This document shows positions 691 through 18,720 of a stretch of DNA of 37,809 nucleotides, piece after piece. This DNA comes from Candidatus Lambdaproteobacteria bacterium (lineage in GTDB: Bacteria > SAR324 > JACQKK01): contig JACQHH010000150.1 of assembly GCA_016199125.1 (NCBI GenBank), positions 1 through 37,809 of the forward strand. Direction: 5' to 3'. Position 1 is the first letter of the stretch; each line of letters opens with the position of its first letter. The notes under the pieces were generated by a model, which worked only from the letters and a program-made list of their open reading frames with translations, had not been told where the DNA came from and made no database searches. The translations under genes and the position numbers were made by a program.

Positions 691-2325
691 TCATGGGCCT
701 GTGTCGCCCCCCGTGCGTTCCGCCGATGGGGGGGGCGCCGACGTCGCCGCCTGCGCCCGGTTGGCACTCAAGGCCATCAGGATCGAGGTCAGCAGCTCGC
801 CCTGTGTAAACGGACCGGTGATGAAATTCGTCACCCCCAGTCGCGTCGCCTCGTCCAGCTCCTTTTGACCGGCGGCCATGCTTGTGAAGACCAGCGTGGG
901 GTGCAGGGCCGGCTGTTCACGGGCCAGGGCCGCGCGGATGTCCTTCCACCCGGGGTCTGTCAGGGCGCTGTCGTAGATCAGCACGTCGGCCTTGCGATGC
1001 CGCACCATGTGCAGCGCGCCCGGACCGGATGCGGCCACAGCCACGTTGTCCATGCCGCTGGAAACGAGATGGTGCTTGATCTGAAAGCGTGCGGCGCTGC
1101 TGGGATTGGCCACGACAAAGGATAATGGGCTCAATTCCTTGATGCCGTGCTTGAAGCGCTCGGCGCCGCCGCTGGGCAGCAGACATTCGATCTGCTCCAG
1201 CAGCGTGGACAGGTGGAATGGCTTGAGCACGTGACCGTTTACGCCGGCCTCCAGTGCGACTTTTACGTAGTTCAGATAGGCGGGCGTCGTCATCAGAATG
1301 AACACGCCATTGCGCGAGAGCTGGTCATGCTCGCGCAGCATGCGATGGAACTGGATGCCGTTGATCCCTTCGAGTTGCAACTCGGAGATCACGACATCGA
1401 CCCTTCCATGCACCTTGAAGTACGCCTCGGCCTCCAGGCCATCCGCCACGACGGAGCACCGGCTGAGGCCGATTTTGCGAAACCCGTCGGCCAACAGGCG
1501 TCGCACGCCGGCGTCGCCATCGACGATCAGGTAGGACAGCTTGAGCAGGTGCGGCGGCACTACAACGGGCGCCAGATTGGCCATGTCCTCGTGCAGCGCA
1601 ATGGCCGTTTCCGCCTGCTTGAGCTTGATCTTGGCGCGCAGCAGCTCGTTGATCTGCTGCATCGTCTTGCGCTTGAGGCTTTCCAGATTCTCCTCCACGG
1701 CGTGGTGCTGTTGATGGCGGTCAACTTCCTCGCGCACCATGCTGCGCAGCTCGGCGGAATTCCACGGCTTGTGCACGTAGCGATGGATCGTGCCGTCGTT
1801 GAAGGCGCGCACCGCGTCGGCAAGTTCCGTGTGTCCGGTGAGCAGGATGCGGCGCGTCTCCGGATGGGATGCCTTGGCCTTGGCGAGCAGCTCAAGTCCA
1901 CCCAGTTCCGGCATGATGTTGTCGGAAATCACGAGGGCGTACTCCTCCCGCTCAATCGCCTCGGCCGCCGTGCAGGAATTCGTGAATGCGTCGATGACGT
2001 ACGCCTCGTTCCGCAACTCCCGTTGCAGCGCGGTAACGATCTGTTCCTGGTCATCGACGATCAGGAGTCTGGGTTTCAAGTCGCCCAAGGATGCGCCGTC
2101 GTGATCCGTAGCCGTCTGGGCCGGCCGATCTTCCTCATTTTCATTCAGCACCTGCGTGCTCCGTCTGTTGGTGATGGTCTGACCTGGCGCCGTGCTGTCC
2201 GGCAGCACGAGGCCCCGCGGAGACAGGGGAACAGCATTGCTGCATCCCTCTGCCTGCGCCGGCCGCGACCGGACCCTTCCCGCGGGCTCTCCAAGGCCGG
2301 ATGAAATGTCCGGATCCTGCGCCAT
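691..2325 (-). CDS. Multi-receiver response regulator (three REC domains, no output domain)
   Basis: The product has 544 residues. After an 80-residue low-complexity N-terminus come three receiver domains, roughly 85-200, 263-383 and 401-518, joined by a helical and probably coiled-coil linker (200-250). REC1 is intact: acidic pair D91/D92, phospho-acceptor D135 in VISDNIMP, T163 and K186 (HKPW). REC2 keeps T346/T347 and K368 (LKPF), but the acceptor position is Glu (E315, VISELQL). REC3 has D452 (IYDSAL), but the conserved Lys is replaced (G504 in TGPF) and the acidic pocket is lost. No DNA-binding, GGDEF, EAL or HD domain follows, so it likely works as a phosphorelay node or by protein contact. 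It starts 6 bp after the stop of the hybrid kinase gene and must be co-transcribed with it. The ATG at 2325 has only a weak ribosome-binding site, and an internal start before REC1 is possible. Confidence 0.85.
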   Translation of the reverse strand: MAQDPDISSGLGEPAGRVRSRPAQAEGCSNAVPLSPRGLVLPDSTAPGQTITNRRSTQVLNENEEDRPAQTATDHDGASLGDLKPRLLIVDDQEQIVTALQRELRNEAYVIDAFTNSCTAAEAIEREEYALVISDNIMPELGGLELLAKAKASHPETRRILLTGHTELADAVRAFNDGTIHRYVHKPWNSAELRSMVREEVDRHQQHHAVEENLESLKRKTMQQINELLRAKIKLKQAETAIALHEDMANLAPVVVPPHLLKLSYLIVDGDAGVRRLLADGFRKIGLSRCSVVADGLEAEAYFKVHGRVDVVISELQLEGINGIQFHRMLREHDQLSRNGVFILMTTPAYLNYVKVALEAGVNGHVLKPFHLSTLLEQIECLLPSGGAERFKHGIKELSPLSFVVANPSSAARFQIKHHLVSSGMDNVAVAASGPGALHMVRHRKADVLIYDSALTDPGWKDIRAALAREQPALHPTLVFTSMAAGQKELDEATRLGVTNFITGPFTQGELLTSILMALSANRAQAATSAPPPSAERTGGDTGP

Positions 2326-2331
2326 GGCGCA

Positions 2332-5300
2332 TCACTCGTCCGCAGCGGCGGCGACCCGCAATGGCCCCAGCGCCCGACGCACGTGCTGCAACAGGGCTTG
2401 GTTGCTGAAAGGCTTTTGCAGGACCTGCGGAGCGTCGCCGTCTCCCTCGGGCGTTTCGCCCGTAAAGCTTTCCGAGTAACCCGTCATGAACAGCACCATG
2501 AGGTCGGGCCGCAGCTTCCGGAGCCGCTTCGCGAGCTCGCTTCCGCCCAGCACGGGCATGACCATGTCCGTCAACACCAGGTCGAATTTCCCGTCAAAAT
2601 CGCAGAAGATGGACTCTGCTTCTGCGCCGTTCGCGGCCGACACGATCTTGTATCCATGCGCTTCCAATGTGCGCTGAGCGGCGTGACGCACCAGCTCTTC
2701 GTCTTCGACCAGCAGAATCGTTTCAACGCCGCGCAACGCTTCGTATTTGGCATGCTGCTGGTTTTCGTCGGTGGCGCTCAGTTCGCGTCGAGGCAGCAGC
2801 ATGCGCAACGTGGTGCCCTTGTTGAGCTCGCTTTCCACGACAATGTCTCCACCCATCTGCTTGACGATCCCGTAGACCGTGGAAAGCCCCAGCCCCGTGC
2901 CCTTGCCCACGTCTTTTGTCGTGAAGAAGGGCTCGAAGACGTGTCGTCGAATCTCTTCGGACATGCCCGTCCCGTTGTCGCTCACGGCCAACATCACATA
3001 GTTCCCCGGCGCAAGGTCCCTGAAGGCGGAGGGCGTTTTTTCATCCACACGCACATTGGCGGTTTCCAGCTTCAGGACCCCTCCTTTGGGCATGGCGTCG
3101 CGGCTGTTGACAGCGAGATTCATCACGATCTGCTCGATCTGGCCTGGATCGGCGTAGACGTGCCCCAGGTCGGGCTCCAACCGGGTCTCCAGTTGAATGT
3201 TCTCGCCGATGACGCGTCCCAGCATCTTCTCCATCTGGGACATCAAGTCATTGAGGCGTACCGTCCGCATGTGCAGCAACTGCTTGCGGCTGAACGCCAG
3301 CAGCTGGCGCGTGAGCGCTGCGGAGCGTTCCACGGCGTCACGAATCACCATCACGTCCTGGATGGCCGGATGGCCTTCCGACAACGATTCCAGGACAAAC
3401 GAGCTGTAGCTGTTCATGACGGACAACATGTTGTTGAAGTCGTGGGCGATGCCGCCGGCCAGTTGGCCCACGGCCTCCATGCGTTGAGCCTGCAGCAGTT
3501 GCTCCTCCAGGGATTTGCGCAATGAAACGTCGCGCACAATGCCCTCGATGCGCACCAACCGCCCCTGGTCGTCGAACACCGGCATTCTGCGTTCTTCGAT
3601 CCACACCCAGTGCCCGTCGCGATGGCGCCACCGAATCGCGATCGGCAGCTCCGTGGTCTTGTCGCCTTGAAACCACATGGCGGCCTGGCGCTCGCGATCC
3701 TCCGGGTGCGTGATGCGCAACCAGAGGTCCGGGTCGGCGTAGTGCTCCTCCGCCGAATAGCCGGTGATCCGGGTCGCCACCGGAGAAACGAACTCGAATC
3801 CCCGAGTGGGAAGGATGCGATAGCTGAAGATCAGGTCCGGGGCGTTTTCCGCCAGCAGGCGAAAGCGGGTCTCGCTTGCGCGCAGCGCCTTTTCGGCAGC
3901 TTTGAATTCGCTGATATCCATGCGCAGCGACACCATGCCGCCTTCTGAGGTGCGCACGTCCCGCACCATGATCCAGCGCCCATTGGTCAGCGTCATTTCG
4001 GCCTGGGTCGTGGCCAGGGTCCTGAATTGTCCCAGACGCCGGGCGACGTAGTCCGCCTCGGTCGCGTCGGGATAATTCACATGCGGCGCGACGAGATGCA
4101 GGAGCTCTTCGAACGACAGCCCGACACGCAGATGTTCGCGCAGAGACGGGAAGATTTCGATGATTTGCTGGTTCCAGAGCTGGAGCCGCTCGTGCTTGTC
4201 AAAGAGGTAGAACCCGGCAAAGATGTGCTGCACGGCATCGTACAGGCGCGCGTGGGCCGCCGTGGCCTCGGCCTTGGCTTGGTCCAGGGCCGTGACGTCC
4301 TCGGCAAGGGCGACCAGGCCCGTGATGTTTCCGGCCTCGTCGCGCAGGGGCTCTTTGATCATGAGCACTGCGCGCGGCGTTCCGTCAGCGAACGTGAGAT
4401 GTTGCAGCTCGTTTTGCCGATCCAGCTCCCCGCTGAGAATGCGGCGATCCAGCTCGGCGATGTGCCGCCATTGCTTGGAATTACCCGCCAGCTCATCGAT
4501 GCGCTTGCCGATCATTTCCTCCACCGGCAACCCCATGACTTCCGCACCCTTGCGGTTGACGACGGTGTAGCGTCCCTGGGCGTCCTTGACCGTCAACGGC
4601 TGGGGAATCGTCTCGAAAACGGTGCGCAGCAGCCGCTGGTTCTCCTGCAGCGCCGATCGGGCCTCTTCCAGCCGGGTCACGTCCTCGCCGATGCCGATCA
4701 GTCCGCAGACAGCGCCGGTGTCGTCCAGGATTCGCTCTTTGATGATGCGCACGGAGCGCCATGTTCCATCGGTGCTTCTCAAGCGGAACACTTTGTCGAC
4801 GCGCGGCGTGGCGCCCGAAAGGAGCTGCTCGTCAAGCTCGGCCACCTGCTGCCATTCCGGCAGGTGCGCAAGCGCCGTCTGGGCGGGACGCCGCCCGCGC
4901 AAGGCCTCCGCATTCTCGCCCAACTGTCGGGCGACGTGACGGTTGACCATCAGGAATCGCCCATCGGCGTCCTTGACATAAACCAGGTAGGGCATGGCAT
5001 CGAATCCGGCCTTGAGAATGCGCTGACTCTCGCGCAGCGCCTCCTGGGCGCGCTCCAACGCGGTCACATCCTCGGACACGCCGACCAGGCCTCGAATCCG
5101 CCCCGACCCGTCCCGCAGGGGAATCTTGATCGTGCGCAAGCGTCGCACGGCTCCGCCTGGGTCATGCGCGTCATTCACGGAATCGACGCGGGCACAGCGG
5201 CCCTGCAAGATCGATTCGTCGCTGCGTCCTACCTGCTCCACTTCCTCGGGTGGGCGCGTCGTGAAGTCCTGGATGCGGAAGCCGATCACTCGCTCCAGGG

Positions 5301-7122
5301 ATGTGGCGTGGTGTTCCTGAAAACCCTGGTTGGCCATCAGATAGCACTGCTGTTCGTCTTTGACGTAGAGCAGATGGGGGATGGCATCGAATACCGCCTG
5401 CAGCAGGAGTTGGCCGTTGCGCAGCGCCTCCTCGGCGCGTTGCCGCTCCGTGATGTCGCGCATGATGCCGATCGCGCAGCCGTCGCCGTAGGGGGATGCG
5501 CTCGTCTCGACGAAGAACCTGGTGCCGTCTTTGCGACGCAGGGGCCTGACCCTGAGTTGCGGTTCCCCGGCCATGATCCTGGCCATGCGCAACGGCTCGG
5601 CGTTCAACGATTCGGGATCCACCAGGTCGGCGAAGCCCAAGGCCAGCAGCTCCTCGCTGGAGTAGCCGGTCATAGTGCAAAGACGCTTGTTGACCTGCAG
5701 AAAGCGACCCGTGCCGTCGCAAGTGAAGATTCCATCCACGGCCTGCACAAGCAGCTCCCGCAAGCTGGCGTTGGTGGCTGCCAACGCTTCCTCGTTGCGG
5801 TGGTACTCGGTCACGTCCAGGACGTTGACGACGGTTCCCCCGTCTGCCGACTTGCGATCCTGCACCAGCAACGTGCGCCCGTCGAGCAGCCGGACCTTGT
5901 GACTGCCCGTCACTTGGCCCGCCAGTTGGCGCATGCGCGCGGCCACGAAGGATTCCGTGTCCTCGCCCGTCGGCACGATGGATGCGGCCACGGCGCGCAC
6001 CAGTTCCTCGAACGGCAGCCCCCTGCGAACAATGGAGGCCAGTTGGGGAAACAGCTCGATGAGCTTGCCATTCCAGAGCTGCAGGCATTGCTCCGCATCG
6101 ACAGAGCAGACGGCCGCCGGAGAATTTTCCATGGCGTCCGCAAGCTGGCGATACGCCTGCATCAGTTCTCCCTCCGCGGCCTGGCGCTCTGACCCATCGA
6201 TATCACGCTGGCCAGTGGCCCACCTCGAGCCTGCCGTATCGTGCAGGTGCTGCAACGGGCACTTGACGCAAAGCGTGCGGCCCTCTGCATCGGCGTTGCG
6301 CAAGATCGTGTCTTGCGCCGGATCGTCATCCGGGGCGCCGCCAGGAAAGGCATACCCTGAACTCCACTGTGGCCATTCCGAGACAATTTCCTGCGGCCCC
6401 TGCAGACCGGGGTCAATCGGCGGGGACGATGATGAAGAACGTGCGGAGGAGGCCGGCGCAGCCACATGGGCCCGGTTTGCGGCCGGCAACGGGCCATCGC
6501 GGTCTTCCGCGCTTACAGCGGGAGGCACGACATCCAGCGCTCCCTGCGGCAGATCCTGCCGCGACGATTCGTCAAACCGGGATGGTGCGTCACCAGATGC
6601 GAACGCAAAGGGAAGGGTGTGCAAGGCAACAGTCTGCCCGGAAACGTTTCCGGCCCGTTTTGCACGCAGCCCCTCCAGCTCACGCCGGACGACATGCAGA
6701 AACAACTCGGTTTCCACATGGTCGATGACGTCGGCAATTCCGTGTCGCCTCGCTTGGACAGAGTCCTGAGCGTCGGCAGGGTCCGTCAGCAGCAGGATCG
6801 GAACATGGGGATCCTGAGCCCGCACCGCATTTGTCACGGATTGCAGATCAGGCCCACGCTTCTGCAACTTCACCAGGACAAATTCCGGGGCGTCTTCCAG
6901 CAGTGCCACCGCGAGATCGACGACACCGAAGGCCCGCCGGGGCGCTGCGTGCAACCCGCCGTCGCGCAGCAGCGCCTGACAGACCTCAAGCTGCACCGGG
7001 GTCAACCCGATGGCCAGCAGCGGGAAGCTGTCCGCAGGGCCGGTGGGTGGGCGGAAACCTGAGGAAGCATCTTGCAAGGTATGCATTGGAAAAATCCTCG
7101 GCATGGCGCTGTCCGGCGTCAT
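2332..7122 (-). CDS. Hybrid sensor histidine kinase with seven PAS domains
   Basis: This is a very large (1596 aa) soluble sensor kinase with no convincing membrane segment. Domains in order: a degenerate receiver-like domain (about 33-150, Lys85 at the usual Asp site); a linker with a CxxC-x3-HxH cluster (C285, C288, H292, H294); seven PAS repeats starting near residues 330, 455, 573, 706, 839, 961 and 1091. The first and sixth are of the type with an LQLWN core; several others share a YVKD core. Next come HisKA with H1227 (GGIAHDFNN), HATPase (N-box NLAVNSRDAM, G1 DNGTGM, G2 GKGTGLGLS) and a C-terminal receiver with D1519 (LTDMVMP) and a QKPF lysine. It should autophosphorylate H1227, pass the phosphate to D1519 and then probably to the downstream three-receiver protein. 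Cytoplasmic location suggests an intracellular cue such as redox, ligand or light. Starts at Met7 or Met13 are possible; GAGG precedes Met13. GC content is lower than in most of the window. Confidence 0.9.
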   Translation of the reverse strand: MTPDSAMPRIFPMHTLQDASSGFRPPTGPADSFPLLAIGLTPVQLEVCQALLRDGGLHAAPRRAFGVVDLAVALLEDAPEFVLVKLQKRGPDLQSVTNAVRAQDPHVPILLLTDPADAQDSVQARRHGIADVIDHVETELFLHVVRRELEGLRAKRAGNVSGQTVALHTLPFAFASGDAPSRFDESSRQDLPQGALDVVPPAVSAEDRDGPLPAANRAHVAAPASSARSSSSSPPIDPGLQGPQEIVSEWPQWSSGYAFPGGAPDDDPAQDTILRNADAEGRTLCVKCPLQHLHDTAGSRWATGQRDIDGSERQAAEGELMQAYRQLADAMENSPAAVCSVDAEQCLQLWNGKLIELFPQLASIVRRGLPFEELVRAVAASIVPTGEDTESFVAARMRQLAGQVTGSHKVRLLDGRTLLVQDRKSADGGTVVNVLDVTEYHRNEEALAATNASLRELLVQAVDGIFTCDGTGRFLQVNKRLCTMTGYSSEELLALGFADLVDPESLNAEPLRMARIMAGEPQLRVRPLRRKDGTRFFVETSASPYGDGCAIGIMRDITERQRAEEALRNGQLLLQAVFDAIPHLLYVKDEQQCYLMANQGFQEHHATSLERVIGFRIQDFTTRPPEEVEQVGRSDESILQGRCARVDSVNDAHDPGGAVRRLRTIKIPLRDGSGRIRGLVGVSEDVTALERAQEALRESQRILKAGFDAMPYLVYVKDADGRFLMVNRHVARQLGENAEALRGRRPAQTALAHLPEWQQVAELDEQLLSGATPRVDKVFRLRSTDGTWRSVRIIKERILDDTGAVCGLIGIGEDVTRLEEARSALQENQRLLRTVFETIPQPLTVKDAQGRYTVVNRKGAEVMGLPVEEMIGKRIDELAGNSKQWRHIAELDRRILSGELDRQNELQHLTFADGTPRAVLMIKEPLRDEAGNITGLVALAEDVTALDQAKAEATAAHARLYDAVQHIFAGFYLFDKHERLQLWNQQIIEIFPSLREHLRVGLSFEELLHLVAPHVNYPDATEADYVARRLGQFRTLATTQAEMTLTNGRWIMVRDVRTSEGGMVSLRMDISEFKAAEKALRASETRFRLLAENAPDLIFSYRILPTRGFEFVSPVATRITGYSAEEHYADPDLWLRITHPEDRERQAAMWFQGDKTTELPIAIRWRHRDGHWVWIEERRMPVFDDQGRLVRIEGIVRDVSLRKSLEEQLLQAQRMEAVGQLAGGIAHDFNNMLSVMNSYSSFVLESLSEGHPAIQDVMVIRDAVERSAALTRQLLAFSRKQLLHMRTVRLNDLMSQMEKMLGRVIGENIQLETRLEPDLGHVYADPGQIEQIVMNLAVNSRDAMPKGGVLKLETANVRVDEKTPSAFRDLAPGNYVMLAVSDNGTGMSEEIRRHVFEPFFTTKDVGKGTGLGLSTVYGIVKQMGGDIVVESELNKGTTLRMLLPRRELSATDENQQHAKYEALRGVETILLVEDEELVRHAAQRTLEAHGYKIVSAANGAEAESIFCDFDGKFDLVLTDMVMPVLGGSELAKRLRKLRPDLMVLFMTGYSESFTGETPEGDGDAPQVLQKPFSNQALLQHVRRALGPLRVAAAADE

Positions 7123-7805: not shown

Positions 7806-8564
7806 TCATTGGCCGGTATTCTTCTTGAGCTGCATGAGGTGGCTGATCATGTCGACGGGGATGGGCAGCACGGCCACGGTATGACCCGGGCCTTCCATCT
7901 CCAGGATGGTCTGCATGAAGCGCAACTGCACGGCCACCGGGTTGTCGGCCATCTGCCGTGCGGCCTTGACCAGGAATTCCGCGGCGGTCTCTTCGGCCTG
8001 GGCCATGATGATCTTGGCGCGCCGTTCGCGCTCGGCCTCGGCCTGCTTGGCGATGGAGCGGCGCATTTCCTGAGGCAGGTCCACGTCCTTCACCTCCACC
8101 TGGCTCACCTTGATGCCCCAGGGGTCGGTGTGGGTATCGAGGATTTCCTGCAGGCGGTGGTTGATGGCCTCGCGCTCGGAGAGCACCTCGTCCAGCTCCA
8201 CCTGGCCCACCACGGCGCGCAGGGTGGTCTGGGCAAGCTGGCTGGTGGCAAAAAGGTAGTCCTCCACCTCGATGATGGCCTTCATGGGGTCCACGACGCG
8301 AAAGTAATTTACCGCATTGACCTTGATGGACACGTTGTCCCGCGTGATGACGTCCTGGGGCGGGATGTCCAGCACCACGGTGCGCAGGTCCACGCGGCGC
8401 ATCTTGTCGATCAGCGGAATGAGCAGGATCAGCCCCGGGCCTTTGACGCCCACGGCCCGCCCCAGACGAAAGATCACGGCGCGCTGATATTCCGGCAGAA
8501 TGCGGATGGCGGCGTACAACAGGCCCAGCAGAATGATGATGACGACGGCAATGGTCGTAAGCAT
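7806..8564 (-). CDS. Slipin / SPFH-band-7 membrane protein
   Basis: The product has 252 residues. An N-terminal hydrophobic segment (about 3-22) anchors it, and the SPFH (stomatin/prohibitin) domain follows: [49 protein letters not shown] and [13 protein letters not shown] are hallmark stretches of bacterial slipins. A charged helical part ([16 protein letters not shown]) probably drives oligomerisation. Such proteins form membrane-associated ring assemblies and are partners of NfeD membrane proteases. The upstream neighbour is nfeD, whose stop is 14 bp away, so the two form the well-known NfeD-slipin operon. The ATG at 8564 is preceded by GGAG at a 7-nt spacing. The same reading frame is open far upstream, but that part is a shadow of nfeD. 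The biological substrate is unknown. Confidence 0.93.
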
Positions 8565-8578
8565 GAATGAACTCCGAT

Positions 8579-9913
8579 CTATGAGACGGGTTGTGCGCGG
8601 CCGGCGGCCGGCACTTTGGCCACGGTGAGCAGCAGGCCCTCCACGGCTTCCACCACCACTTCGTCGTCGGCCGCAAGGGGCTCCTGGGCGCGGGCGCGCC
8701 ACAACTCCCCATTGAGCAGCACCTGTCCCTCGTGGGGCGGGGCGATGGGGTGGCGCACGCGGCCCACACGGCCCACCAGGTTGTCCTGGGCCGAACGCGG
8801 GTGCATGCGCTGGCTCTTCACCAGCAGCCTGCCGATGACCAGCGCGGTCAGACCCACCACCCCCACGGCTGCGAAGATCATGGGCCGCGAGATGCGCAGG
8901 TCGGTCAGCGACTGGTCCAACAGGAACAGGGCGCCGATGAGCACGCAGGCCAGCCCGCCGATGCCGAGCACGCCGAAGCTGGGCACGAAGGCCTCCGCGA
9001 CCAGCAGGGCCACCCCCAGCAGCATCAGGGCCAGGGCGCCATAGCTGACCGGCAGGGTCTGCATGGCAATCAGCGCGATGAGCAGGCTCATGGCGCCCAG
9101 CACGCCGGGAAAGATCAGACCGGGGTTGGAAAATTCCATGTACAGGCCCACCAGCCCGATGATGAGCAGCAGGAACACCACGTTGGGATTGCTGACCACG
9201 GACATGAAGCTCTGCGAAATGCTCATGTCCTGCATCACGATGGGGCGACCGGCGGTTTGCAGCATCACCACCCGTTCGCGGGACATGCGCACCTCGCGGC
9301 CCTGGAGTTGCCGCATCAGGTCGCCCAGGTCTTCGGCGATGAGGTCGATCACCTTGAGTTCCAGCGCCTTGTCGGCAATGACCGATTTGGATTCGCGCAC
9401 GGCGGAGATGGCCCACTCCACGTTGCGCTGGCGCAGATGGGCCAGGGATTCGATGTAGGCCGCGGTGTCGTTGAGGATCTTCTCCCCCATGACCTTGTTG
9501 TCGTCTCCGCCGAAGATGGACACGGGGTGCGCCGCGCCGATGTGCGTGGCCGGGGCCATGGCCGCCACGTGGCTGGCCATGCTGATGATCGTCCCGGCCG
9601 ATGCGCCCCGCGCGCCGGAGGGGGCGATGTACACCACCACAGGCAGCGACGCATTGAGGATGTCCTGCACGATGTCGCGCGTGGCATCCAGCAGCCCGCC
9701 GGGCGTGTCGAGCTGGATCACTAGAACCTCGGCTTGCGTGGCCGCGGCGTGCTCCAGTGCAGTCTGCACGTAGCGCGCGGTGGCCGCGGTGATGGCCTGC
9801 TGCACGGTGATGACGTGGATGGCGCCCGGGGGCGGCTGCTCGACGGCTGCGATGCCGTGCAGCGTCAGCGCAACCGCCAGCGCGGCGAATATACCTGTGG
9901 TCTTGCGGATCAT
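8579..9913 (-). CDS. NfeD family membrane-bound serine protease (ClpP-class)
   Basis: The product has 444 residues from the ATG at 9913 (MIRKTTG), which gives a clear signal peptide of about 23 residues. A longer frame upstream looks untranslated. The ClpP-like protease domain (about 30-230) includes DTPGG, Ser105 in GASAGT as likely nucleophile and Lys145 in MGEK as likely general base, a Ser-Lys dyad spaced as in archaeal 1510-N proteases. Four or five transmembrane segments follow (about 235-375), and the C-terminal soluble OB-fold NfeD domain closes it ([13 protein letters not shown]... [13 protein letters not shown]). The active site should face the periplasm. It is thought to cleave hydrophobic stretches of its slipin partner, encoded immediately downstream. 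The gene upstream is a permease 145 bp away, so it may have its own promoter. Confidence 0.92.
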
Positions 9914-10058
9914 GGGACACCCGTGTCGCTCGGCCCGCCGGTGCGGCGGGCCCACAGTTCAGGGTACCAGCACTTGGCAGGCGCGGTCATCCGTGACATG
10001 CGCCGGGGCCCCACGCAGCGGGACGAGCGTCCCGGACAGGCCTCTGCGCCGTGGGGGT

Positions 10059-12315: not shown

Positions 12316-14352
12316 CTACTTGGCGGGCTGGGCCGCGCCCTGTTCCCCACCGCCCTGTTCCCCACCGGAAAGCGCGCCGTTCTCCGTCGCTTTCGATGCG
12401 GGACCTGAGTCCAGATTGAAGTCGCGCTTGAGCAGCGCCTCGGGATTCTGGCGGATGTTGCGCGTCTCTTCAAAGCGTCCGCGCACCGCGTCGGAGACCT
12501 CGCGCAGGGCCTCCTCGGTCTGGATGATGTGCGGGCGGATGAAGACGATCAGGTTGGTCTTGCGCAGCTCCTCGGCGCGCGCGCGGAAGAACCAGCCCAG
12601 CACCGGAATGTCGCCCAGGCAGGGCACTTTGGTTTCCGTCTCCACCTGCTGATCCTGGATCAGGCCGCCGATGGCCACGGTGGTGTTGTCGTCCACCAGC
12701 ACCTGGGTGTTGATGGAACGCTTGAGCGTGGTAATGGCCTGCTGGTCCGAGGTGACGGTGGCCTGGCGCGCGGCCACGCTGCTGGACTCCTGCTGGATGA
12801 TCAGGCGCACCTTGTCGCCGCCGGTAATTTGCGGCCGGATCTTGAGGATGACCCCGATGTCCTTGAACTCGAACTCGGTGGTCGTCTGCAGGTTGCTGTT
12901 GGTGACCACCTTGGCCGAAATGGGCACCACCTGGCTCACGTTGATCTCGGCTTCCTCGTTGTTCAGGGTGAGCAGTTGCGGATTGGCCAGGATGTTCAGA
13001 TCCTGATCCTGGCGCGTGGCCTGAATGAAGCCGCTGAAGGACACGAAGCTCTGCCCCTGGAACTGGATCTCGTTGCCCACAATGCCCACCACGGCCCCCG
13101 TGCCGCTGCTGAGGGCCGACGGCAGCGACTGCGGCTGGGCATTGGGAAAGCCCGCCCCCAGCACGCCGGAGCCCGTCTGCGAGGCCGCCTGCCAGCGCAC
13201 ACCAAGCTGCAGGCTCTTCTCCAGGCTGATTTCCATGATCAGCGCTTCGACGTAGACCTGCGGGCGCCGGATGTCGAGCTCGGCCACCATGCGCTGCATG
13301 GTCTCGATCACTTCCTGGGAGCCGAACACGATCAGCGAGTTGGTGGGCTTGTCGGCGGCCACGAACGTCTGGGGCGTGGACGCCTGGCCCTGGCCCTGGG
13401 CCTGCACCTTGGCCTGTCCGGTGGCGGTGGTGTCCTTCACGGTCTGCAGAATCTTGGCCAGCTCCTCGGCGTCGGCGTGCTGCAGGCGAAAGACCTTGAT
13501 CCCGGCATCCTCCACCACCCCCTGCACGTCCAGCGATTCGATCAGCGTGCGGTATTGGGCCACGGTCACCGGATCGGCCACCAGGATCAGGGAGTTGGTA
13601 CGCTCCTCGGCCACGATCTTCACGTCGTCCCCCCCGGGCTGCTGGGGTGTGCGGGCCGCGGAGCGGCCGGCGATGACCTTGGTGGTCAGCGACTTGAGAA
13701 TGGGCTCCAGCTTGCGCGCCGCGGCATACTTGAGCTTGATCACCACGAATTCCACGTCCCCCGGCTGGGTATCCAGCGCCCGCACGATCTCCATGATGCG
13801 GTTGATGTTCTCCTCGCTGTCGGACAGCACCAGCACGTTGGCAGGCGAATACACGGCCAGGGCCGCGGTCTTGGACATGATCGGCGCCAGCACGGCCTTG
13901 ATCTGGTTGGCGTCGGCGAAGCGCAGGGGAATGATCTGTGTGAGGAACTGGTTGCCGCCGGGCTCCTTCGGCTCTTCGCTGCGCGTGGGGCTGGGCAGGC
14001 GCGAGGCGTCCTTGGACTGCACCACCTGCACGACGGGGCTGCTCTCGTTCTTGATGGTCGTGTAGCCCTGCATGGCCAGCACGGTCTCGAAGATGCGGAA
14101 CGCATCGGCCCGGTTGAACTTGCGCGGCGAAATCAGGGTGATCTTACCCCGGATTTCCTTGTCGTCCCAGACAAAGGCAATGCCGAAGGCGCGCGACATG
14201 AGCTGCAGGAAGTTCGCAACGTCCACGTTGCGGAAGTTCATTTCGATCTGCTCGTCCTTGTCCGGCTTGAGCTGCTGGGCAAACAGCGGCGCGGCCGGAA
14301 TCAGGCACAGGCAAACCAGGAGCAGCAACGTTATCAGCCGACCACGTCCCAT
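12316..14352 (-). CDS. gspD: Type II secretion secretin GspD
   Basis: The product has 678 residues from the ATG at 14352 (MGRGRL), giving a clean signal peptide ending near LFAQQ. A TTG eight codons upstream is the other possible start. Domains: N0 (QIEMNFRNVDVANFLQLMSRA), then N1, N2 and N3 repeats with the typical IIPLRFADANQIKAVLAPIMS, VVIKLKYAAARKLEPILKSL and VFRLQHADAEELAKILQTV stretches. The secretin barrel has FVSFSGFIQA, EINVSQVVPI, EFKDIGVILKIRPQI and the VPCLGDIPVLGWFFRAR signature. It forms the outer-membrane pore through which folded exoproteins leave. No other gsp gene is in the window, although T2SS genes usually cluster. The C-terminus is a Gly/Gln/Glu-rich tail encoded partly by a 15-bp tandem duplication. 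There is no obvious S-domain for a pilotin. Confidence 0.92.
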   Translation of the reverse strand: MGRGRLITLLLLVCLCLIPAAPLFAQQLKPDKDEQIEMNFRNVDVANFLQLMSRAFGIAFVWDDKEIRGKITLISPRKFNRADAFRIFETVLAMQGYTTIKNESSPVVQVVQSKDASRLPSPTRSEEPKEPGGNQFLTQIIPLRFADANQIKAVLAPIMSKTAALAVYSPANVLVLSDSEENINRIMEIVRALDTQPGDVEFVVIKLKYAAARKLEPILKSLTTKVIAGRSAARTPQQPGGDDVKIVAEERTNSLILVADPVTVAQYRTLIESLDVQGVVEDAGIKVFRLQHADAEELAKILQTVKDTTATGQAKVQAQGQGQASTPQTFVAADKPTNSLIVFGSQEVIETMQRMVAELDIRRPQVYVEALIMEISLEKSLQLGVRWQAASQTGSGVLGAGFPNAQPQSLPSALSSGTGAVVGIVGNEIQFQGQSFVSFSGFIQATRQDQDLNILANPQLLTLNNEEAEINVSQVVPISAKVVTNSNLQTTTEFEFKDIGVILKIRPQITGGDKVRLIIQQESSSVAARQATVTSDQQAITTLKRSINTQVLVDDNTTVAIGGLIQDQQVETETKVPCLGDIPVLGWFFRARAEELRKTNLIVFIRPHIIQTEEALREVSDAVRGRFEETRNIRQNPEALLKRDFNLDSGPASKATENGALSGGEQGGGEQGAAQPAK
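12337..12366. repeat. 15-bp tandem duplication at the 3' end of gspD
   Basis: The unit GCCCTGTTCCCCACC occurs twice without spacing. On the coding (minus) strand it encodes a repeated Gly-Gly-Glu-Gln-Gly stretch in the disordered tail of GspD. Being in frame, copy-number change would not disrupt the protein. Confidence 0.85.
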
Positions 14353-14524
14353 GCGAAGCCGATGTCCTTTTTTCAATTCCGTTCAGCCGACCGGCTGCGT
14401 ACCGCGTTGGAAGGAGGTGCAGAATAGGGTTTCGTCCGGAACGATCCGCATTGGGAACAACCGTATCGCATTCCGAGGATGCAGGGCAAAGCATTCCCAA
14501 ACGCACGCGGTCGCCGCGCCAACG

Positions 14525-15244
14525 TCACGGATCGGCCCCCAGACCCCAATGAGGATGCTGCAGCAGCCAGGCCGCCAGCGCGAGATCGTCCCCATGTGTG
14601 ACTTTGATATTGCGCGCCTCGCCCGGCACGGTCGCCACCGCGCCGCCGGCCGCTTCCACGAACTGCGCATCGTCAGTGAAGGCGTTGGGCAGGGTCATGC
14701 CGCAGCGATAGGCCTCGTGCAGCGTGGCCCAGCGGAACGCCTGGGGCGTTTGCGTGCGCAGCAGCGCCGCGCGATCCACCACCTCGCTGCGTCCCTCGGC
14801 CCGCCGCCGCACCGTATCGGCCAGGGGAATGACAGGCACGGCGGCCTCGGCCGTTTCCAGGGCCGCCAGCAGCCGCGCCACGAGAGCCGGGGAGCAGCAG
14901 GGCCGGGCGCCGTCGTGCACCAGCACGGCCCACGGCGGGCGGCTCTCCAGCGCGTGCAGTCCGCGAAACACCGAATCGCGTCGTTCAGCCCCGCCCTCGA
15001 TCAGCGGGCGCAGCTTGGCCCACGCCTCGCGATGGGCGAAGCAGGCCTGCAACGCCGCCCGCTCGGCGGGGCGGCAGATCACGTGAATGGCCTCGATGGC
15101 CGGGAGCGCATGGAACAGGCGCACCGTGTGGCGGATCAGCGGCTCGCCGGCCAGGGGCGCGAGCACCTTGGAGCCGCTGCCGCCCATGCGGCGGCCGGCG
15201 CCCGCGGCGGGAATCAGCACGGCGATGCCGGGCGGCGCGTTCAC
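14525..15244 (-). CDS. ispD: 2-C-methyl-D-erythritol 4-phosphate cytidylyltransferase
   Basis: The product has 239 residues from a GTG at 15244, which is preceded by AGGAT at about 7 nt. It transfers CMP from CTP to MEP, the third step of the MEP isoprenoid pathway. The nucleotide-binding start is VLIPAAGAGRRMGGSGSK with Lys26 in the expected place. Further family motifs are VHDGARPC, the RTQTPQAFR segment and TDDA near the substrate site. The C-terminus has the GEARNIKVTHGDDLALA stretch common to IspD. The usual partner ispF is not next to it; instead gspD follows 172 bp downstream. The gene is divergent from moeA. The length matches the family. Confidence 0.93.
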   Translation of the reverse strand: MNAPPGIAVLIPAAGAGRRMGGSGSKVLAPLAGEPLIRHTVRLFHALPAIEAIHVICRPAERAALQACFAHREAWAKLRPLIEGGAERRDSVFRGLHALESRPPWAVLVHDGARPCCSPALVARLLAALETAEAAVPVIPLADTVRRRAEGRSEVVDRAALLRTQTPQAFRWATLHEAYRCGMTLPNAFTDDAQFVEAAGGAVATVPGEARNIKVTHGDDLALAAWLLQHPHWGLGADP

Positions 15245-15335
15245 GGGTGATCCTGGCCTCGCGAAGGGGGCGGCAGCACGGTCCAGGGGGCGGGTCGCCG
15301 GCTGTGGCGCCGTGGCAGCCCGCGCCGGCTGCGGC

Positions 15336-15365
15336 TTGACAGCAAAAAAGTACGGGCAGTACCCT
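15336..15365 (+). promoter_or_regulatory. Candidate sigma-70 promoter for moeA
   Basis: A perfect -35 box TTGACA (15336-15341) is followed 18 nt later by TACCCT (15360-15365), a weak -10. It lies about 60 nt upstream of the moeA start in the 179-bp region divergent from ispD. An A-tract follows the -35 box. Confidence 0.45.
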
Positions 15366-15423: not shown

Positions 15424-16650
15424 ATGATGGCCGACATCCGCATGCGGGGGTTTTCGCAGCGCACCACCGTGCACCAGTTTGAGGCGCTGATCCGCGAGCA
15501 TTGCCGGCCGCTGGGCACGGAGGAGGTGTCCATCGCCCAGGCCGGGAGGCGCGTGCTGGCCGAGCCGGTCGTCTCAGGCGTGGACGTGCCGGGCTTCGAG
15601 CGCTCGGCCATGGACGGCTATGCCCTGCGCAGCGAGGAGACCTTCGGTGCCGGGACCTACAATCCGCTACAGTTCCGCGTGATCGGCGAGGTCACGCCGG
15701 GGCGCACGTTTCCCGGCCGCGTGGGGCCCGGCGAGACGGTGCGCATCATGACCGGGGCGCCCCTGCCCGACGGGGCCGACGCGGTGCTGATGGCGGAATA
15801 CGCGGCCGAGCGCGACGGGGTGATGACCGCCAGCGATGCCGTCACCCCGCGCAAGAACGTGGGTCGCATCGGCGAGGATATCCGCGCAGGCAGCACGGTG
15901 CTGCCGGCCGGGCGCGTGCTGCGTCCGCAGGACCTGGGCGTGCTGGCCAGCATCGGTCAGGGGCGCGTGCGCGTGGTGCGCCGCTGCGGCGTGGCTCTGC
16001 TGATCACGGGCAACGAGCTGCTCAGGCCGGGCGAGCGTCCCCAGGGCGCCAGGATCGTGGATTCCAACAGCATCATGCTGGCCCAACTCATCGCCCGCGA
16101 CGGGGCGCAACTGGCGGCGACGCTGCACCTGGCCGATATCCGCGACGACATCCGCGCGGCGCTCAGCGACGCCCCGGGCGATCTGCTGGTCACCACCGGC
16201 GGCACATCCGTGGGCATCGAGGATCACGCGCCCACGCTCATCGCGGAGTTGGGCGAGCTGCTGGTGCACGGCGTGGCCATGCGACCCTCGGCCCCCAGCG
16301 GCTTCGGACTGGTCAAGGGGCGGCCGGTGTTCCTGCTGCCGGGCAACCCGGTTTCCTGCCTGGCGGCCTATGATTTCTTCGTGCGCCTGGGGGTGAACCT
16401 GCTGGGCGGACGGCCGGAGCCCTGGCCCTACCGCCCCGTGCGCTGCACGCTCACCTCGCGCATCGCCTCGCAGATCGGGCGGGTGGATTACGCCCGCGTG
16501 CGCGTGCGCGACGGGCAGGCGGAGCTGGTCGCCACCAGCGGCGCCTCCATCCTCTCCTCCACCAGCCAGGCGGACGGCTTTGTGGTGGTGGAGGAGGATT
16601 CCGAGGGCATCCCCGCGGGCGGCGAAGCGCAGGTGTGGCTCTACGACTAG
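15424..16650 (+). CDS. moeA: Molybdopterin molybdenumtransferase MoeA
   Basis: The product has 408 residues. It inserts molybdate into adenylated molybdopterin to give active Mo cofactor in the cytoplasm. Typical MoeA/gephyrin-E features run through it: VDVPGFERSAMDGYALR (domain III/I), RIMTGAPLPDGADAVLMAEY, the VGRIGEDI stretch, ITGNELLRPGE, the catalytic-core loop DLLVTTGGTSVGIEDH, and VFLLPGNPVSCLAAYDFFV. A C-terminal domain IV (about 330-408) follows. There are possible starts at Met1, Met2 and Met7. It is followed 129 bp later by a second MoeA-like gene carrying an extra domain, so the two form a paralogous pair with possibly different metal or partner preference. Confidence 0.93.
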   Translation: MMADIRMRGFSQRTTVHQFEALIREHCRPLGTEEVSIAQAGRRVLAEPVVSGVDVPGFERSAMDGYALRSEETFGAGTYNPLQFRVIGEVTPGRTFPGRVGPGETVRIMTGAPLPDGADAVLMAEYAAERDGVMTASDAVTPRKNVGRIGEDIRAGSTVLPAGRVLRPQDLGVLASIGQGRVRVVRRCGVALLITGNELLRPGERPQGARIVDSNSIMLAQLIARDGAQLAATLHLADIRDDIRAALSDAPGDLLVTTGGTSVGIEDHAPTLIAELGELLVHGVAMRPSAPSGFGLVKGRPVFLLPGNPVSCLAAYDFFVRLGVNLLGGRPEPWPYRPVRCTLTSRIASQIGRVDYARVRVRDGQAELVATSGASILSSTSQADGFVVVEEDSEGIPAGGEAQVWLYD

Positions 16651-16682: not shown

Positions 16683-16779
16683 GAATGCCGGGCCGTCGCA
16701 GGTGCGGGCCCTGATGGCGCATGCACCCTGGGCGCCTTGCGGGAGGGCGCGCGCGCAATTCGACACTGGAAACAACGCC

Positions 16780-18720
16780 GTGAAGCAGGAACAATTCCTC
16801 AACGTGCTGTCGGCGGAAGAGGCTGAGCGCGTGTTTCGCGAGGCCATCCGCCCGCGGCCCCTGGAGGCGCAGACCGTGCCGCTTGCCGAGGCTCTGGGGC
16901 GGATCTGCGCGGAGACCGTGGTCTCCACCATCGACGTGCCGTTCTTCGATCGCAGCAACCTGGACGGCTTTGCCGTGCGGGCCGAGGACACTTTCGGCGC
17001 CGAGGAGCAGGCGCCGCGCCTGCTGCGGCTCAACGAAGAGGTGCTGCACACCGGCGTGGCCCCCCGGCAGACGGTCGCCGCGGGCACGGCCACGGCCATC
17101 GCCACGGGCGGCGTGATGCCCCGCGGAGCCGATGCGGTGCTCATGGTGGAGCACACCCTGCCGGTCGAGGGAGGCATTCACGCGCTGCACGCCGTCGTGC
17201 CCGGCGAGGCGGTGAGCTTTGCCGGCACGGACATCGGCGCCGGCGAGACCGTGCTGCACCGGCGCACGCTGCTCACCTCCCGCGAAACGGGGGTGTTGGC
17301 GGCCATCGGCCGGGCGACCGTGGACGTGGTGCGGCGCCCCCGCGTGGCCATCCTGTCCACCGGCGACGAGATCATCGCCCCCGGCGCGCCCATGACCCTG
17401 GGGCGCATCTACGACTCCAACGCCACCATCATCGCCGATGCCGTGCGCGAGCTGGGCGCCGAGCCGGTGTCCCTGGGCATCGTGCCCGACGACGAGGCCC
17501 TGCTGGAGGCGCGTCTGCGCGAGGCGCTGCGTTGCGACGTGGTGCTGCTCTCCGGCGGCACCAGCAAGGGCGCCGGAGACCTGAACTACAAGGTCGTGCG
17601 GCGTCTGGGCGGCGGCGGCCCGGAGAGCCCCGGCATCCTGGTGCACGGCGTGGCCCTCAAGCCGGGCAAGCCCCTGTGCCTGGCCAAGCTGCACGGCAGG
17701 CCGGTGGCGATCCTGCCGGGCTTTCCCACTTCGGCCGTGTTCACTTTCCATGCCTTCGTCGCCCCGGTGCTGCGCCTGATGGCCGGCCAGCCCGAAGCCG
17801 CCGCGCACACCGTCGAGGCGCGCCTGCCCCTGCGCGTGAACTCGGAGAAGGGGCGCACCGAGTTCCTGCTGGTGAACCTGGTGGAGTCCGACCACGGCTA
17901 CGCCGCCTATCCCATGGGCAAGGGCAGCGGCTCGGTCACGGCCTTCTCCAAAGCCGACGGCTTCATCGCCATCGGCCGCAACACGGAGCTGCTGGAGGAG
18001 GGCAGCCGCCTGCCCGTGACGCTGATCGGCGCGGCGCTGGCCCCGGCGGACCTTGTTGTCATCGGCAGCCAGTGCGTGGGCCTGGAGCACTTGCTGAGCC
18101 TGATGAGCGAGGCGGGCTGGCGCGTGAAATCCATCGCCGTGGGCAGCCAGGGCGGCTTGCTGGCGGCCAAACGCGGCGAGTGCGACGTGGCCGGCATGCA
18201 CCTGCTGGACGAGCGCACCGGAGAATACAACCGGCCCTTCCTGGACGAGACGCTGGAGCTGCTGCCGGGCTACGGGCGCAAGCAGGGGCTGGTGTTCCGC
18301 CGCGACGACCCGCGCTTCTCCGCAGCGGCCGGCGCGGGCCATGCGCAGGCGCTGCGCGCGGCGCTGGCGCACCCGGACTGCCTGATGATCAACCGCAACC
18401 GGGGCAGCGGCACACGCGTGCTCATCGACAAGCTGCTGGCCGGCGCCAAGCCCCCGGGCTACCTGGTGGAAGCCAAGTCGCACAATGCCGTGGCCGCCGC
18501 AGTGGCCCAGGGCCGGGCCGACTGGGGGGTGGCCATCTCCCAGGTGGCCCAGGGACTGGGGCTGGGCTTCCTGCCCATCGTGGATGAATCCTACGACTTT
18601 GCCCTGCCCCGCGCCCGCGCCCAGCGGCCCGCGGTGCGGGCCTTTGCCGAGCTGCTGCGCGATGCGCGGGCTCGCGCCGGGCTGCGTGCGCTGGGCATGA
18701 GCCTGCCGGAGACCCCGTGA
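16780..18720 (+). CDS. MoeA-like molybdopterin biosynthesis protein fused to a PBP-like domain
   Basis: The product has 646 residues from the GTG at 16780 (KQEQFLNVLSAEEAERVF follows it; GGAAAC lies about 9 nt upstream). Residues 1-410 form a MoeA unit: IDVPFFDRSNLDGFAVR, IATGGVMPRGADAVLMVEH, SFAGTDIGAGETV, ILSTGDEII, the VVLLSGGTSKGAGD loop and ILPGFPTSAVFTFHAF. Residues about 425-640 form a periplasmic-binding-protein-like domain of the kind found behind MoeA or ModE-type proteins (SQCVGLEHLLSLMSEAGWRV, CDVAGMHLLDE, NRNRGSGTRVLID, SHNAVAAAVAQGRADWGVAI). With no signal peptide it must act in the cytoplasm, perhaps sensing or presenting molybdate, tungstate or a cofactor intermediate; that is inference. 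Its stop overlaps the GTG of kdsB by 4 bp, so translation is probably coupled. Confidence 0.9.
   Translation: MKQEQFLNVLSAEEAERVFREAIRPRPLEAQTVPLAEALGRICAETVVSTIDVPFFDRSNLDGFAVRAEDTFGAEEQAPRLLRLNEEVLHTGVAPRQTVAAGTATAIATGGVMPRGADAVLMVEHTLPVEGGIHALHAVVPGEAVSFAGTDIGAGETVLHRRTLLTSRETGVLAAIGRATVDVVRRPRVAILSTGDEIIAPGAPMTLGRIYDSNATIIADAVRELGAEPVSLGIVPDDEALLEARLREALRCDVVLLSGGTSKGAGDLNYKVVRRLGGGGPESPGILVHGVALKPGKPLCLAKLHGRPVAILPGFPTSAVFTFHAFVAPVLRLMAGQPEAAAHTVEARLPLRVNSEKGRTEFLLVNLVESDHGYAAYPMGKGSGSVTAFSKADGFIAIGRNTELLEEGSRLPVTLIGAALAPADLVVIGSQCVGLEHLLSLMSEAGWRVKSIAVGSQGGLLAAKRGECDVAGMHLLDERTGEYNRPFLDETLELLPGYGRKQGLVFRRDDPRFSAAAGAGHAQALRAALAHPDCLMINRNRGSGTRVLIDKLLAGAKPPGYLVEAKSHNAVAAAVAQGRADWGVAISQVAQGLGLGFLPIVDESYDFALPRARAQRPAVRAFAELLRDARARAGLRALGMSLPETP

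Follow-up and report, generated by a model that had tools for sequence, protein, structure and literature searches.

A hybrid histidine kinase (HK) and a regulator with three receivers and no output domain (RR) are encoded side by side in the 37,809-nucleotide stretch of DNA analysed here (the window). Our computational analysis shows that, of the three receivers of RR, only the first (REC1) keeps a complete active site, that the pairing with a kinase is conserved in other genomes, and that REC1 belongs to a clade that includes receivers of GGDEF and cyclase regulators. We read the two genes, with middling confidence, as a cognate two-component pair in which phosphate would pass directly from H1227 of HK to REC1, the signal would be relayed through a coiled coil, and the second and third receivers (REC2 and REC3) would form an output acting by protein contact. 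The window is contig C120 of genome G000 (2.98 Mb in 238 contigs, 73.5% complete), and two of its minus-strand open reading frames, of 1596 and 544 residues, coincide with those of the original prediction (Table 1).

Table 1. Features of the HK/RR locus (window positions)
Feature	Position	Strand	Basis and remarks
Hybrid histidine kinase HK	2332-7122	-	ORF, Pfam, hydropathy; predicted soluble, 1596 aa
HK N-terminal pseudo-receiver (aa 33-150)	6673-7026	-	hhalign, sequence
Decayed eighth PAS / Ala-Ser-Pro-rich linker (~aa 186-310)	6193-6567	-	Paralog comparison, coding score
PAS1 (aa 324-442, PAS_7 type)	5797-6153	-	PAS profile
PAS2 (aa 451-562)	5437-5772	-	Pfam, PAS profile
PAS3 (aa 571-691), YVKD trio	5050-5412	-	PAS profile, PAS tree
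PAS4 (aa 700-820), YVKD trio	4663-5025	-	PAS profile, PAS tree
PAS5 (aa 829-948), YVKD trio	4279-4638	-	Pfam, PAS profile, PAS tree
PAS6 (aa 957-1075), groups with PAS1	3898-4254	-	PAS profile, PAS tree
PAS7 (aa 1084-1204, PAS_3 type)	3511-3873	-	Pfam, PAS profile
HisKA, H-box LAGGIAHDFNN, H1227 (codon 3442-3444)	3280-3468	-	Pfam (E=0.0012), H-box
HATPase_c with N, G1, F and G2 boxes	2785-3150	-	Pfam, sequence boxes
HK C-terminal canonical receiver (HK-REC), D1519	2377-2718	-	Pfam, active-site residues
Three-receiver regulator RR	691-2325	-	544 aa from ATG 2325; probably 486 aa from GTG 2151
Likely ribosome-binding site GGAG (2162-2159) and GTG start (2151-2149)	2149-2162	-	Sequence, codon usage, homologue starts
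REC1, canonical, phospho-acceptor D135 (D77 from GTG)	1708-2070	-	Alignment, AlphaFold2, active-site residues
Long helix joining REC1 to REC2	1576-1758	-	AlphaFold2
REC2 pseudo-receiver, Glu315 at Asp position, Thr and Lys kept	1168-1542	-	Alignment, active-site residues
REC3 pseudo-receiver, motif D-V-x-x-Y-x-x-x-L-x-D-P-x-W	760-1128	-	Pfam third stretch, hhalign, alignment

Pfam, a PAS profile built from HK itself and profile-profile comparison together support the predicted layout of the kinase, namely an N-terminal pseudo-receiver, seven PAS domains, HisKA, HATPase and a true receiver. Pfam finds PAS families, HisKA (under the gathering score), HATPase and a single C-terminal Response_reg, and both the H-box and the HATPase boxes expected of a kinase are present. 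The N-terminal receiver has no Pfam match; in hhalign it reaches 96.5% against receivers versus 0.2% against PAS domains. It lacks the acidic pair, carries Lys at the Asp position and has no Lys on strand 5, while a single-sequence fold of residues 1-325 (pLDDT 39) was uninformative. HK is predicted to be soluble, as had been claimed, having no membrane segment and a largest 19-residue hydropathy mean of 1.49.

The genome encodes a paralog of HK (L051:8122-12762, minus strand, contig C7) that is 49% identical over the whole length and has eight intact PAS domains. Its extra PAS (E=2.7e-13) aligns with the Ala/Ser/Pro-rich stretch of HK, where codon usage is poor and the remaining PAS homology weak. 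The paralog has no receiver partner beside it, and adjoins a cytochrome c gene and ATP-synthase-like alpha and gamma genes. The view that the PAS repeats sharing a YVKD core arose by internal duplication stands for PAS3, PAS4 and PAS5, a triplication whose copies are 37-39% identical when aligned to each other, but these duplications are not recent. Each of the three is closer to its paralog counterpart (48-55% identity) and pairs with it in the PAS tree, where all together form one clade (98/94), so the duplications are older than the paralog split and a very recent origin is ruled out. PAS1 and PAS6 likewise group together with their paralog counterparts. An eight-PAS kinase was found in G008 and large PAS kinases also in G001 and G009; since such kinases are common in the taxonomic family, the seven-PAS kinase is, on its own, unexceptional. 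Another hybrid kinase of the N-terminal receiver/PAS/HisKA/receiver type (L052:3213-6107, minus strand, contig C234 of G000) is 51% identical to the catalytic part of HK, and its gene overlaps a CheB methylesterase gene (6107-6886, minus strand).

RR consists, as predicted, of three receivers without an output domain, and so has the composition of a stand-alone multi-receiver regulator (at least two receivers, no output): Pfam finds three Response_reg stretches and nothing else, and REC3 reaches 98.3% against receivers in hhalign. We rejected the possibility of a missed output domain because a convergent FabG-like gene leaves no room downstream and the five homologues end shortly after REC3. 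The start of the gene is more likely GTG 2151 than ATG 2325, judging from codon usage, which scores -0.31 bits per codon over the first 58 residues versus +0.41 over the remainder, from the homologues, four of four of which begin just before REC1, and from the GGAG 7 nt upstream of the GTG. The gap between HK and RR is therefore probably 180 bp and not the 6 bp originally proposed from the first ATG. Two-component genes that share a strand and lie less than 200 bp apart are in most cases partners (PMC3018481), and 180 bp still falls inside that distance. AlphaFold2 predicts a helix at residues 132-192 (numbered from the GTG), within a block of pLDDT at least 87 that extends up to about residue 190. 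The AlphaFold2 prediction left out the relatives found by whole-genome searches, and the model is confident only for REC1 and the helix; REC2 is of low confidence and domain placement is unreliable, and we make no structural claim for REC2 or REC3.

Receivers lacking one or more of the DD/D/T/K residues are defined as pseudo-receivers (PMC12632262), and REC2, REC3 and the N-terminal receiver of HK all miss key residues. In REC2 a Glu replaces the Asp and the second acidic residue is missing; in receivers without the aspartate, Glu and Asn are its most frequent substitutes (PMC4395418). REC3 has neither the acidic pair nor the Lys. Two of the five receiver-like domains had been predicted to be fully functional, and this count is right, the domains with complete active sites being HK-REC (E1473 D1474/D1519/T/K1570) and REC1 (D91 D92/D135/T163/K186), the latter thus having the DD/D/T/K site of a partner receiver.

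A search of 383 genomes, whose coarse first step makes absences provisional, found homologues covering all three receivers in five, all of one class: one in the taxonomic family of the window genome and four in another family. The proteins share 27-32% identity. In all five REC1 is canonical and an output domain is absent. The Asp position of REC2 holds E, N, E, E and D, and none of the five has a full active site in REC3, where the motif given in Table 1 is conserved. A scan of named genomes gave no match with the single RR protein, and with the RR alignment gave only matches that each covered a single receiver; a plasmid scan found only receivers of HD-GYP proteins and others. In five of five genomes the neighbour of RR is a PAS kinase of the N-terminal-receiver type, so that the co-located pair described in the window is kept in four others, with the kinase 3-4 nt away in G041 and G043, 152 nt in G051, 6 or 180 nt in the window, and divergent in G048. 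The adjoining kinases belong to different subfamilies, with different H-boxes (AHDFNN in the window, AHEINN in G041 and G043, SHELRT in G048 and G051), which suggests that the pairing outlived an exchange of kinase. Judged by eye, the kinases of the four other genomes seem to have an intact N-terminal receiver; a C-terminal one was detected in none of them. The pair of kinase and RR lies near V/A-type ATPase genes in both G041 and G043 (L039:12993-18426 and L040:12835-14769).

In a tree of 60 receivers, REC1 of the five RR proteins clusters (98/90) with the receivers of two regulators encoded on contig C45 of G001 (L042:12936-14027 and 14289-15338), one of them a REC-GGDEF protein and the other a REC-class III cyclase; branch order inside the clade is weakly supported. 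The G001 genome belongs to a sister genus, and the two genes lie just downstream of a hybrid kinase with an N-terminal receiver and PAS domains that is 43-45% identical to the catalytic part of HK. When the receiver of the G001 REC-GGDEF protein was searched back in G000, the best match was REC1 (112.8 bits), the next receiver-only match scoring 49. A profile of REC1 plus the helix gave 220-262 bits for the five RR proteins and the two G001 regulators, and at most 156 elsewhere. The NCBIfam model nearest to REC1, although far under its cut-off, is that of a c-di-GMP phosphodiesterase regulator of the NosR family. REC-GGDEF genes also adjoin RR in G048 and G051, and GGDEF and class III cyclase regulators are the sole recurrent association in the relatives. 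In G000 itself only two GGDEF proteins were found, neither of them close to the pair. The probable origin of RR is a receiver-plus-coil lineage with GGDEF or cyclase outputs elsewhere, the enzyme having been replaced by two pseudo-receivers. That this lineage exchanged a GGDEF or class III cyclase domain for two pseudo-receivers as the output of RR, and kept them through changes of partner kinase, is a tentative proposal that we hold with low confidence, and the enzymes of G001 could instead reflect a parallel fusion and not the ancestral state. Given the outputs found elsewhere in the lineage, the likeliest target of RR would lie in cyclic-nucleotide signalling. No link was found to the flagellar, pilus or PilZ-type target originally suggested, the pair being flanked by the FabG-like gene, on the downstream side of RR, and an SPFH/NfeD operon. 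The SPFH/Band-7 and NfeD genes (7806-9955, minus strand) lie upstream of HK, about 680 bp away, and farther along the window a MoeA-PBP-like domain fusion (16702-18720, plus strand) directly follows a second moeA (15424-16650).

In the cognate-pair reading, the seven PAS domains of HK, perhaps together with its pseudo-receiver, would sense cytoplasmic signals and so set the autophosphorylation of H1227. From there the phosphoryl group would pass within HK to D1519, which may act as a sink or brake, and directly to D135 of REC1, which would control a coiled-coil dimer; REC2 and REC3, not normally phosphorylatable, would form the surface on which a target protein docks. Against this reading, no GGDEF or cyclase gene adjoins the pair within the window, the homologues number only five at low identity, and REC2 of G048 keeps its Asp and might be phosphorylated there. 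The phosphorelay of the original prediction has no local support, there being no Hpt domain in HK, RR or the flanking proteins scanned. A four-step relay like that of CckA and ChpT, from H1227 to D1519, to an Hpt encoded elsewhere and on to D135, seems to us unlikely. It would make use of HK's own canonical receiver, CckA is the closest NCBIfam model to the catalytic part and receiver of HK (433 bits), and G000 has three Hpt domains. However, that model has a cut-off of 1000 bits and so does not class HK as a CckA; the Hpt domains sit inside two large proteins elsewhere (contigs C44 and C118); a ChpT-type HPTransfase (PF10090) was not found in the 73.5%-complete genome in a scan whose Caulobacter control was positive; and, as the kinases of the four other genomes showed no C-terminal receiver, the family as a whole does not share a relay through such a domain. 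With no Hpt near the locus and no HPTransfase found in the incomplete genome, direct transfer from H1227 to REC1 would be the simpler route.

RR might alternatively work as a phosphate sink or as a scaffold that inhibits the kinase, with REC1 competing for phosphoryl groups with other receivers, such as those of REC-GGDEF proteins, and REC2 and REC3 binding the kinase with no target further downstream. The lack of an output domain throughout the family and the REC-GGDEF neighbours in G048 and G051 would fit, but a sink would have no use for a second and third receiver that are degenerate, with a motif conserved in REC3, and in the window, G041 and G043 no REC-GGDEF gene lies beside RR; we consider this improbable. 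We give very little credence to the idea that the pair is a decaying remnant drifting towards pseudogenes, in which HK lost a PAS domain and the active site of its N-terminal receiver, and RR those of REC2 and REC3. The decayed PAS with its poor coding score and the degenerate receivers would agree with it, but the frames are open over their full length, the kinase boxes and two receivers are intact, and residues specific to REC3 are kept in genera that otherwise differ. Moreover, the degeneracy of REC2 and REC3 is common to all five genomes, and would thus be old and maintained.

Among known systems, Caulobacter PleD (REC-REC-GGDEF) also has tandem receivers on one chain, the second being a pseudo-receiver that acts as an adaptor in dimerisation. 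PleD is the best Foldseek match of the RR model (E=1.4e-10) and by this comparison is the nearest solved multi-receiver structure; the whole-chain TM is only 0.23, owing to the unreliable placement of domains in the model. RR differs in having no GGDEF domain, a third, degenerate receiver and a long helix that joins REC1 to REC2. The absence of an output domain is shared with stand-alone multi-receiver regulators such as FrzZ, which is made of receivers only, and the three-receiver regulators in P2CS; RR is set apart from these by the degeneracy of two of its three receivers, its own REC3 motif and its constant kinase neighbour. Such three-receiver regulators are already known and rare: among proteins without a transmitter, the 2010 P2CS census counted 301 with two receivers and 14 with three, the latter out of about 22,000 (PMC3018481). 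The G001 regulators share with RR the REC1 clade and a related neighbouring kinase, and have an enzymatic output where RR has REC2 and REC3. HK resembles CckA in its PAS, HisKA (HDFNN), HATPase and receiver domains and departs from it, beyond the score, in being soluble and in having seven PAS domains and a pseudo-receiver. ShkA and other hybrid kinases likewise include a degenerate receiver; that of ShkA, which binds c-di-GMP (PMC7010744), is placed after the catalytic domain and before the receiver, whereas that of HK is N-terminal.

In the literature we searched, the RR family seems to be undescribed, as do its conserved association with a neighbouring kinase and its relationship to regulators that bear enzymes. 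Pseudo-receivers are common and their mechanism in bacteria is unsettled (PMC12632262). RR combines degenerate receivers and a normal one in a single chain, beside a kinase, and its sister proteins carry enzymes in the same place; together, RR and these enzymes allow a direct test of what pseudo-receivers do in bacteria.
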